From positions 124,001 to 188,000 of the forward strand of contig JAJDCO010000135.1 in assembly GCA_029260795.1 (NCBI GenBank): a stretch of DNA of 64,000 bases, in the 5' to 3' direction. Shown here in pieces: positions 15,870 to 20,137 of the stretch. The notes below the pieces were generated by a model that had not been told where the DNA came from, searched no databases, and was given only the letters and a program-made list of their open reading frames with translations. Position numbers and translations under genes: made by a program. The DNA comes from Planctomycetota bacterium. Its GTDB lineage: Bacteria > Planctomycetota > OFTM77. Position 1 is the stretch's first letter, and every line of letters starts with the position of its first letter.

Positions 15870-16970
15870 ATGAAACGAAGTTACCTCGCTCTCGAGGGCG
15901 TGGAGAAGAGCTACGGCGATGTCCATGCCGTGCGAGGCATCGACTTGGATTTGGAACCGGGTCAGTTCTTGGTACTGCTGGGTCCATCGGGCTGCGGCAA
16001 GACCACCACGCTGCGAATGATCGCTGGACTCGAGACTCCGACAAGTGGTCGGGTCTACCTGGATCAGGAAGACATCACGCAGCGGCGCGCAGCTGCCCGC
16101 GACATCGCTTTCGTCTTCCAGTCTTACGCTCTGTACCCGCACTTGAGCGTACGCGACAACATCTCCTTTCCATTGCGGGCCCGTAGCGAATCGCGAGCGG
16201 TCATCGCCGAACGGGTCTCGACGGTCGCGCGAGCCGTCGGACTGACGAGCTTGCTCACTCGCAAGCCCCGCCAGCTCTCTGGAGGGGATCAGCAGAGAGT
16301 CGCGTTGGCTCGCGCCATGGTTCGTCGCCCCAAGGTGTTCTTGATGGACGAGCCGCTAGGAACACTCGACGCTCAACAACGAGAGAGCATGCGGGAGCAG
16401 ATTCGCGAGCTTCACGATCAGATCGAAGCCACCACGGTCTACGTGACCCACGATCAGATCGAAGCCATGGCGATGGCAGACCGTGTCGCCGTCATGAAGG
16501 ACGGCGCGATCCAGCAGATCGGAACACCGATGGAGATCTACGAGGAGCCGACCAACCTCTTCGTCGCACACTTCATCGGCTCGCCCGGAATGAACCTCCT
16601 TCCTGGGAGGCTCGAAGAAGGACCGACATTCGTCTCGCGGTTGGGTGAGCTCCAGCTTCGGTTGACCAACCCCGGCATCGCGTCTTGGGTCGGAACAGAG
16701 GTCGTGCTCGGGATTCGGCCAGAGGGAATTCAGCTGGCTCTCGGAACGGGCTCGACTCGGCTCCAGGTTCTCAAGTGCGAGCCCGGCGGATCCCACAACA
16801 TCGTGAATGTCCGATTCGGGGATGGGCTGCTCCGAGTGCGAACGGAGCGCAAGGAAAGGCCCGGCGAGGGTGACACGGTCTCCATTCGCCTCGACCTCGG
16901 GCAGATCCACCTCTTCGAAGCCGCCACCGGAAAGCGCTTGGGACGCCTCGAAACCGGAGTGGCGTCTTGA
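15870..16970 (+). CDS. ABC transporter ATP-binding protein, MalK/UgpC type
   Basis: GPSGCGKTTTLRMIAGLE, LSGGDQQRVALARAMVRRPKVFLMDEPLGTLD, C-terminal TOBE-like region. Confidence 0.92.
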   Translation: MKRSYLALEGVEKSYGDVHAVRGIDLDLEPGQFLVLLGPSGCGKTTTLRMIAGLETPTSGRVYLDQEDITQRRAAARDIAFVFQSYALYPHLSVRDNISFPLRARSESRAVIAERVSTVARAVGLTSLLTRKPRQLSGGDQQRVALARAMVRRPKVFLMDEPLGTLDAQQRESMREQIRELHDQIEATTVYVTHDQIEAMAMADRVAVMKDGAIQQIGTPMEIYEEPTNLFVAHFIGSPGMNLLPGRLEEGPTFVSRLGELQLRLTNPGIASWVGTEVVLGIRPEGIQLALGTGSTRLQVLKCEPGGSHNIVNVRFGDGLLRVRTERKERPGEGDTVSIRLDLGQIHLFEAATGKRLGRLETGVAS

Positions 16971-18061
16971 GCTACCTGAATCTCTCTCACCTCTCCAAGC
17001 GCTTCGGCGACGTGACAGCGCTCGCCGATTTGGAGCTCACCGTTCAAGAGGGAGAGCTCCTGGTCGTTCTCGGCGCCACCGGTGCCGGCAAGACGACGCT
17101 GCTCCGCTGTATTGCAGGGCTCGAGAGGCCCGACGATGGCATCATCGAGCTCCAAGGAGACGACATTGCTCGTCGGGATCCAGCGTCTCGAGACATCGCG
17201 GTCGTCTCTCAGAGTTTCTCTCTGTATCCCCGCTGGAATGTGTTCGACAACCTGGCCTTCCCGCTCCGCTCACCTCGGTTCAAGGTGCCCGAGAATCACG
17301 TTCGCTCGCGGGTCGAAACAGTGGCCCGGCAGCTTCGAATCGAGCAGCTCCTGGATCGTCCCACGCCACGACTGTCGGGAGGAGAGATGCAGAGAGTCGC
17401 CATTGGCCGCGCACTCGTCCGTCGTCCCAAGCTGTTCCTGTTCGACGAGCCGTTGAGCCGCTTGGACGACAAACTTCGCGAGGAGCTTCGCGCCGAGATC
17501 TTCACACTCCAGCGGAAGCTCGGTACGACCATGCTCTACGTCACCCATGATCAGTTCGAGGCCCTGGCGCTCGGCGACCGGATCGCGGTTCTCAACTCCG
17601 GCCGACTCCATCAGTCCGCCCCACCGCTGCATGTCTATGACAACCCGGAAACCTTGACCGTCGCACGCGCGCTCGGTTCGCCCCCGATCAATCTGATCCC
17701 GGTGTGCTTCGAGCGAGACCAGCTCTGCTGGGAGAAAGCGAGTCGTCAGTCGCAGCCCCCCCGCCTTCGCTTGACGAGCGGCGCCTACGACGAAGGTCTC
17801 CGATACTCCCTCGCCGTCCGCCCTGAGGATGTCGTCCGTGTTCCAGGCGGCGGCGGACATCCGGGCACGGTCTTGTCGACGAGTCGCAACGGTCCCGACA
17901 CGACGATTCACGTTCGTGTCGAGGATCAGGAGATCCACCTCACTGAGGTGGGCGCCTCGCCCGACCAAGTGGGGGATTCACTTGGGTTGGCGTTTCGGCG
18001 AGGTCGCCTCCACGTCTTTGACTCCCGCGGCCAAAGGCTCAGCGAGAACTTTCAGAGCTGA
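16967..18061 (+). CDS. Second ABC transporter ATP-binding protein, MalK/UgpC type
   Basis: LGATGAGKTTLLRCIAGLE, LSGGEMQRVAIGRALVRRPKLFLFDEPLSRLD; TTGA start/stop overlap with previous gene. Confidence 0.9.
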   Translation: MSYLNLSHLSKRFGDVTALADLELTVQEGELLVVLGATGAGKTTLLRCIAGLERPDDGIIELQGDDIARRDPASRDIAVVSQSFSLYPRWNVFDNLAFPLRSPRFKVPENHVRSRVETVARQLRIEQLLDRPTPRLSGGEMQRVAIGRALVRRPKLFLFDEPLSRLDDKLREELRAEIFTLQRKLGTTMLYVTHDQFEALALGDRIAVLNSGRLHQSAPPLHVYDNPETLTVARALGSPPINLIPVCFERDQLCWEKASRQSQPPRLRLTSGAYDEGLRYSLAVRPEDVVRVPGGGGHPGTVLSTSRNGPDTTIHVRVEDQEIHLTEVGASPDQVGDSLGLAFRRGRLHVFDSRGQRLSENFQS

Positions 18062-18641: not shown

Positions 18642-19692
18642 TCAGAGTGTGAGGAACATGTAAGACGCCACACCCGCAGCAGCCAGGAGCAGAATCACTG
18701 CCAATGCGATGAAGATCTTCGAGCCTCCGGAAGCGTGCTCCGAGCGATTGATGTTCACTCCGGGACGCGCCGTCGGCACCATGTGCCTTGCCGACGAGCT
18801 CCGAGGCGAGGCTCCCGTTTTGGGATTCGGCCTCGCATCTTGACGCGGCTTGACGACCGGGCGAGCTGCGGCGACGGCGGTCGCAGCGTCGGTCCGTGGG
18901 GTCCGCCCTGGCGCGGCCGGACGCGGATTGGAGGCGGGGCGCTGAGCGGCAGCCGGTCGCCGTTGTGCGGGCGCCCGAGCCGGAGCGTTGCGATTCGGAG
19001 CGGTTCGCGGCGAGGCAGGTCGTCCCGGCGCAGTATCGGTTGCTCGAACCGGCCGTACTGGACCAGCAGCACCCCCTGATTGATTGCGCATTTGGGCGCC
19101 CTTCGAACCGACCTTCGAGATGTTCTCGAGGACGAGGGCCGAGAGGGACTTCAGCGACGGGAAGACGCCTTCGCCAGATCGGGCAACCGCATCGAAAGTC
19201 GGAGCGCCGTAGAGGTTGAGCTTGGCATCGAGCTCAGCCGATTCGATGGCGTTCGGCAGGTCCCGCTTGTTGTACTGAATCACGAGCGGGACATCCGAGA
19301 TGTCTCGTCCATGCTCGGCCAGGTTGACGCGCAGGTTCTCCATCGACTCGAGGTTCTCCTCGAACTTGTCGGGATCGGAGTCGGCGATGAAGATAATGCC
19401 GTCGGCGCCTTGAAGGACGAGCTTGCGTGTCGAGTTGTAGTAGACCTGACCCGGCACCGTGTAGAGATGGAACCGAGTGCGCATCCCGGCAATCGTGCCG
19501 AGGTCGAGCGGCATGAAATCGAAGAACAGGGTTCGATCGCCATCGGTCGCGATCGAGGTCAGCTCCCCTTTGTTCTCCTCGGGCGCCTTCTTGTGAACGA
19601 TCTCGAGGTTGGTGGTCTTTCCACTCATTCCAGGACCGTAGTACACGACCTTGCAGTTGATCTCGCGCAATGCGAAGTTGATCTGGACCATT
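18642..19692 (-). CDS. MglA-like small Ras-family GTPase with Pro/Ala/Arg-rich linker and C-terminal TM helix
   Basis: [73 protein letters not shown]-terminus [27 protein letters not shown] opens to 19784; Met at 19692 fits family N-terminus. Confidence 0.93.
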
Positions 19693-19780: not shown

Positions 19781-20137
19781 TCAATGAACGTTGAGGCGCC
19801 CGCGCTTCCGAATCCGCTCGGCTGCACTCGCGATCTCGACGCGAGTCAGATCCAATTTGATGAACTGATCAGTGATGACGACCAAGTAGGAGTGCTCCAG
19901 ATTCACGACGACCAACTTTCCGTAGTTGGCTGCCAGTACGAATGTGTTGAAGTGCCGGAATCCGTTCTCTTTCACGCCGCTGTTGAGCGTCAGCAACAGC
20001 ATCGAGACGAGCGCAGCGATCGTCTCCTCGTCGAGCGTGTCACCGAGGACGGCCGTGACGATCACGCCATCCGGTGACATGACGAGGCTGCCCTTTACGC
20101 CCAGCTCGTCATTCAGGCTCTCGAGGATTTGACGCAT
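19781..20137 (-). CDS. MglB-like roadblock/LC7 protein
   Basis: [48 protein letters not shown]...[19 protein letters not shown]. Confidence 0.88.

Follow-up and report, generated by a model that had tools for sequence, protein, structure and literature searches.

The question raised by this locus is how an MglA-type GTPase would work if its chain ended in a membrane anchor. MglA from Myxococcus has 195 amino acids, possesses neither linker nor membrane segment, and reaches the pole from the cytosol, whereas P0005, the MglA-family protein encoded in the window (the whole stretch of 64,000 nucleotides of Planctomycetota DNA that was analyzed), has a long linker and a predicted membrane segment. 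The initial annotation placed the gene at 18642-19692; the end at 18642 stands, but 19692 is out of frame and the start codon is the ATG at 19691. The mechanical open reading frame opens further upstream, with a TTG at 19784, but the ATG is preferred because M1-V2 line up with the start of nearly all 27 aligned relatives. The chain read from the ATG begins straight with the G domain. The features of the gene and of its neighbors are collected in Table 1.

Table 1. Features of the GTPase gene and of the genes around it in the window.
Feature	Coordinates	Strand	Basis
MglB (roadblock GAP/GEF partner) with C-terminal helix, P0002	18105..18617	-	phmmer, Pfam
MglA-family GTPase P0005, predicted membrane-anchored, 349 aa	18642..19691	-	phmmer and AF2/Foldseek
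P0005: C-terminal transmembrane helix (predicted tail anchor), residues 324-348	18648..18722	-	AF2, hydropathy
P0005: disordered Pro/Ala/Arg-rich linker, residues 197-323, ~127 residues	18723..19103	-	AF2
P0005: G domain, residues 1-196	19104..19691	-	P-loop, Arg finger, TVPGQ, NKRD
Small single-domain roadblock protein, P0001	19781..20137	-	Pfam, profile comparison
TPR superhelix with C-terminal roadblock-like domain, P0003	20154..21257	-	AF2, hhalign
DUF4388 (PATAN) - TPR - transmembrane helix (about 463-485) - PQQ/BamB-like beta-propeller, P0004	21365..24499	-	Pfam, hydropathy

Judged by its sequence, the core of P0005 is an ordinary, complete Group 1 MglA G domain with a full active site, in agreement with the initial annotation, which had described a canonical GTPase core about the size of a complete MglA. 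Residues 3-196 match MglA from Myxococcus xanthus and Thermus thermophilus (phmmer E 5e-74 to 5e-71), with M. xanthus MglA as the closest solved structure (E 5.4e-74), and all Group 1 motifs lie within residues 1-196. The P-loop is GPGMSGKT (19-26), which fits GxxxxGKT, and its G19, G24, K25, and T26 are invariant in all 86 Planctomycetota homologues compared. The intrinsic Arg finger R53, beside the G2 threonine T54, the G3 motif TVPGQ (78-82), and N141, K142, and D144 of the G4 motif NKRD (141-144, fitting [NT]KxD) are invariant in 86/86 Planctomycetota and in 37/37 other homologues. In an AlphaFold2 model for which the window protein was combined with 26 relatives, the 14 best PDB matches of the G domain (Foldseek) are all MglA, with 6izw at the top (E 4e-24, TM-score 0.92 on target), and identity to M. 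xanthus MglA is about 57% in the structural alignment. In the classification of Wuichet and Sogaard-Andersen, Group 1 MglA has TVPGQ at G3, whereas Groups 2-5 have GTPGQ (PMC4316618); mglB lies within four genes in Group 1, and here P0002 is found 24 bp downstream of P0005. The length of 349 amino acids falls outside the 150-240 amino acid size filter of that survey, but the filter belongs to the survey and is not a property of the clade.

Beyond the G domain, the ~130-residue Pro/Ala/Arg-rich linker and terminal hydrophobic helix first noted at the stop codon both hold up. Residues 205-323 have no secondary structure in the AF2 model (pLDDT mostly 46-57), while the helix at 324-348 is confident (pLDDT about 90). 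The best 19-residue Kyte-Doolittle mean of the tail is 2.54, and 20,000 shuffles of the 153-residue tail reached a maximum of 2.24. No lone C-terminal hydrophobic segment was found in the other long open reading frames of the same Planctomycetota loci (124 counted; the seven that were flagged proved to be upstream-extended MglA copies). The hydrophobic end of P0005 is not a chance feature. With a single helix at 324-348 of 349 residues and no N-terminal signal, P0005 fits the bacterial tail-anchor layout by prediction. The tail-anchored DjlC, Flk, and TssL from E. coli likewise have a cytoplasmic domain and a single helix at the extreme C-terminus without an N-terminal signal, but, unlike P0005, none is a small GTPase, and GTPases are not mentioned in a paper on bacterial tail anchors (PMC3087755).

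A linker and a hydrophobic reading frame could have been joined to a normal MglA by a frameshift or misassembly, and the source assembly does consist of 160 contigs, with linker DNA that is GC-rich and of low complexity. The same architecture, built on unrelated linkers, is nevertheless present in 82 proteins from many assemblies, which refutes an artefactual origin of the linker and helix and leaves it a probability of practically nil. The relatives behind this count come from two sources. A scan of GTDB genomes returned 80 relatives. The complete Planctomycetota proteins in this set, 37 in number, all have a linker of low complexity together with a hydrophobic segment, the latter nearly always at the stop codon; a transmembrane tail was found in none of the 37 non-Planctomycetota homologues from the same scan, and the relatives in Myxococcota, Gemmatimonadota, and Desulfuromonadales have 192-213 residues and no tail. 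Planctomycetota genomes, mostly draft assemblies, were then surveyed with a core-only profile, which cannot favor tails, and MglA was present in 171 of 392. The sample taken from them holds one locus per family-level group where possible, and mostly the best-scoring copy of each genome.

A search for MglA homologues with a C-terminal transmembrane segment had been suggested as a check in the initial annotation, and in the two sets taken together such a tail is found in 82 of the 86 distinct complete Planctomycetota homologues (window protein included), representing 45 of 48 family-level groups as counted by hand. The linker is hypervariable in sequence, with a median length of about 130 residues (range 73-298) in the Planctomycetota relatives. 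Among the 82, the tail helix has a median KD of 2.58, a net positive charge lies upstream of it in 76, in line with the positive-inside pattern, and no more than 15 residues follow the hydrophobic core in 79. In the loci L127, L175, and L176 (group f10), the transmembrane helix is followed by a Pro/Glu/Ala-rich stretch of ~70-95 residues, which is presumably periplasmic. The remaining four homologues end in a short basic, aromatic tail that is probably amphipathic, and 0/86 have the tailless form of ~195 residues that is usual in Myxococcota. The linker and tail anchor on MglA are thus supported, at the level of sequence, as a conserved trait across a phylum-wide Planctomycetota clade.

Multi-copy Planctomycetota genomes also encode paralogues, some of them without a tail and others fused to larger proteins. 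For example, G106 (L166, L180, L182, L197), G070, G050, and G088, from Planctomycetota groups f54/f26, have 6-11 MglA-like genes each; their best-scoring copies end in FKKFxKF-type basic tails, and the others are short or lie inside large proteins. The second MglA-like gene of the window genome (L006:445-2073, minus strand, contig C52) encodes a 543-amino acid fusion with HisKA and HATPase_c histidine-kinase domains.

The hydrophobic end could still fall short of a stable anchor, being cleaved or serving oligomerization or protein binding, so that the GTPase would be soluble. Insertion of the segment is a prediction, the transmembrane calls having been made by hydropathy and AF2, and the segment is alanine-rich. 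The hydrophobicity and the flanking charge are conserved in the homologues though the sequence varies, however, and a few lineages have exchanged the segment for a basic/aromatic tail, as would be expected if membrane association were selected. A soluble GTPase is therefore very improbable, and the predicted membrane anchoring of P0005 by its tail is well supported by sequence and model.

Zixibacteriota, Ignavibacteriota, and FCB relatives (L051-L080) share the G domain, a long linker, and a C-terminal tail with the Planctomycetota proteins, but their tail is a short, conserved basic/aromatic peptide of the KKRGFFKRLFGIK type, which by analogy is probably a membrane-binding amphipathic tail and is not transmembrane. 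In a tree of G-domain cores only, Planctomycetota MglA form one clade (support 100/98). In a larger quick tree, the transmembrane label requires three changes; these would be explained by a single origin followed by basic-tail replacement, once in an f54/f26 lineage and once in an f17 sequence that sits on a long branch. It is an even call whether the MglA family arrived on its own, and repeatedly, at the Ras-like layout of G domain, hypervariable linker, and membrane anchor, by a transmembrane tail in Planctomycetota and by basic amphipathic tails both in Zixibacteriota-type bacteria and, separately, in a few lineages of Planctomycetota, with MglA and MglB in these phyla forming a two-dimensional membrane system and not a cytosol-membrane shuttle.

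The GTPase is the fourth of five same-strand genes separated by gaps of 16-107 bp (P0004, P0003, P0001, P0005, P0002), and essentially every Planctomycetota locus of sufficient length has them in the same order. P0002 (Pfam Robl_LC7 1.2e-14) aligns over residues 9-167, C-terminal extension included, with M. xanthus MglB (6izw_B, phmmer E 6.4e-31). The Arg finger, TVPGQ, NKRD, and an MglB partner with a C-terminal helix are all shared with the M. xanthus and T. thermophilus systems. P0001 has a Robl_LC7 score of 26.1 bits (cut-off 23), and its family profile matches solved roadblock proteins (best E 2e-15). In the whole genome, Pfam detects no roadblock genes other than P0001 and P0002. P0003 is modeled with a pLDDT of 92. 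Roadblock proteins were absent among its 50 listed Foldseek matches, which are all TPR-type or designed helical-repeat proteins, so the evidence for its roadblock domain comes from profile comparison, in which residues 257-363 align with the P0001 family (hhalign 96.8%, E 2.7e-10), and from a Zixibacteriota counterpart that exceeds the Pfam Robl_LC7 cut-off. P0004 has a single hydrophobic peak at 463-484. Its DUF4388 we take to be a PATAN domain, and with TPRs, one membrane span, and a BamB-like propeller it is a candidate transmembrane effector reaching from the GTPase to the periplasm. A scan for promoters and terminators gave no signal above chance. Two adjacent ABC ATPase genes with a 4-base overlap lie beside the module on the opposite strand (15870-18061, plus strand).

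The output of the module is suggested by relatives and by precedent. In the Zixibacteriota, Ignavibacteriota, and FCB modules, the DUF4388, TPR-roadblock, roadblock, and MglB neighbors are the same as in Planctomycetota, but pilB and pilT come directly after them. In 12 Zixibacteriota/Ignavibacteriota loci with amphipathic-tailed MglA, the MglA-MglB module is followed by PilB (MshEN and T2SSE, E 2e-136), and then by a PilT-like ATPase wherever the contig extends far enough. This operon is a direct genomic link of MglA to pilus motors. The locus L062:41-8645, to which others among L051-L080 are similar, reads DUF4388 - TPR-roadblock - unknown - roadblock - MglA with KKRGFFKRLFGIK tail - MglB - PilB - PilT-like ATPase. 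The ~4 kb around the Planctomycetota MglA loci contain no pilB or pilT, so the pilus link there is by homology. The window genome does encode PilB- and PilT-type ATPases and PilM-type proteins. Co-occurrence with PilT was considered as support but is uninformative, PilT being nearly universal (386/392 Planctomycetota genomes, against 171/392 for MglA).

M. xanthus MglA-GTP acts by binding SgmX, a TPR protein that in turn positions PilB (PMC7519303; PMC11580455), and in Synechocystis, PATAN domains bind PilB directly (PMC10519157). P0004 and P0003 are likewise TPR proteins beside an MglA, but P0004 differs from SgmX in having PATAN, transmembrane, and propeller domains, and identification of P0004 as SgmX was rejected (NCBIfam SgmX model 16.6 bits, cut-off 1800). 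The exchange activity of MglB is conferred by its C-terminal helix (PMC6785124), and C-terminal hydrophobic helices can insert via SRP in E. coli, with YidC optional (PMC6794478).

The reading preferred here, with a probability of roughly 0.6, is an MglA/MglB switch that is confined to the inner membrane and acts on the type IV pilus, the pilus output being what we infer from these comparisons. The tail would insert into the inner membrane post-translationally, leaving the G domain to face the cytoplasm, and P0002, by its roadblock dimer and C-terminal helix, would stimulate hydrolysis and exchange alike, as in Myxococcus. MglA in the GTP form would diffuse in two dimensions and be positioned by capture and not by cytosolic binding, while the tether would give the G domain reach to MglB, to P0003, and to the cytoplasmic TPR part of P0004. 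The last would be the membrane effector: P0004 unites PATAN, TPRs, and a membrane span, and therefore inner-membrane-confined MglA-GTP could act directly on it. Its PATAN domain may recruit or license the extension ATPase PilB, which would place type IV pilus assembly under the switch, and the propeller on its periplasmic side may touch an envelope component.

The same anchored module might instead serve an envelope or cell-shape process specific to Planctomycetota, for example the positioning of outer-membrane or division machinery via the P0004 propeller. The BamB-like fold of that propeller and the lack of adjoining pil genes at the Planctomycetota loci point in this direction, as does the unusual cell biology of a phylum with shape-changing and surface-motile members (PMC11481906). 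The relatives, however, have the same core module directly upstream of pilB/pilT, pili or gliding are the targets of the experimentally studied Group 1 MglAs, and there are pilus precedents for both the PATAN and the TPR parts; such an output is possible but rather unlikely. The "fixed scaffold switch" raised in the initial annotation does not follow. A tail anchor confines the protein to the plane of the membrane yet leaves diffusion free, so that a single-pass anchor allows lateral diffusion and capture, and the catalytic residues and the MglB partner for a GTP/GDP cycle are kept. The tail anchor would turn three-dimensional exchange into two-dimensional diffusion with capture; immobility is not implied.

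The G domain is of an already known type; the novelty lies in the anchored architecture and in the module around it, and no earlier description of a membrane-anchored MglA was found among the open-access papers searched. The survey of prokaryotic small GTPases kept only proteins of 150-240 amino acids, left out 39 of 488 MglA-clade sequences that were longer, and does not mention Planctomycetes (PMC4316618); the cut above 240 residues would remove the anchored class, which fills the gap left by that limit.

Myxococcus-based polarity models assume exchange of the GTPase between cytosol and pole. If a clade with a membrane-tied switch is real, then either exchange is not essential or lateral diffusion takes over from it. 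Eukaryotic Ras, Rho, and Rab proteins, and the tail-anchored Miro, also combine a G domain, a hypervariable region, and a membrane anchor; Ras, Rho, and Rab are anchored by lipids, and the likeness of P0005 is one of convergent layout between tails that are not homologous. No such extension was found in Asgard Rab-like proteins (PMC10933270). The anchored MglA of Planctomycetota would then be a bacterial counterpart to the membrane anchoring of Ras.
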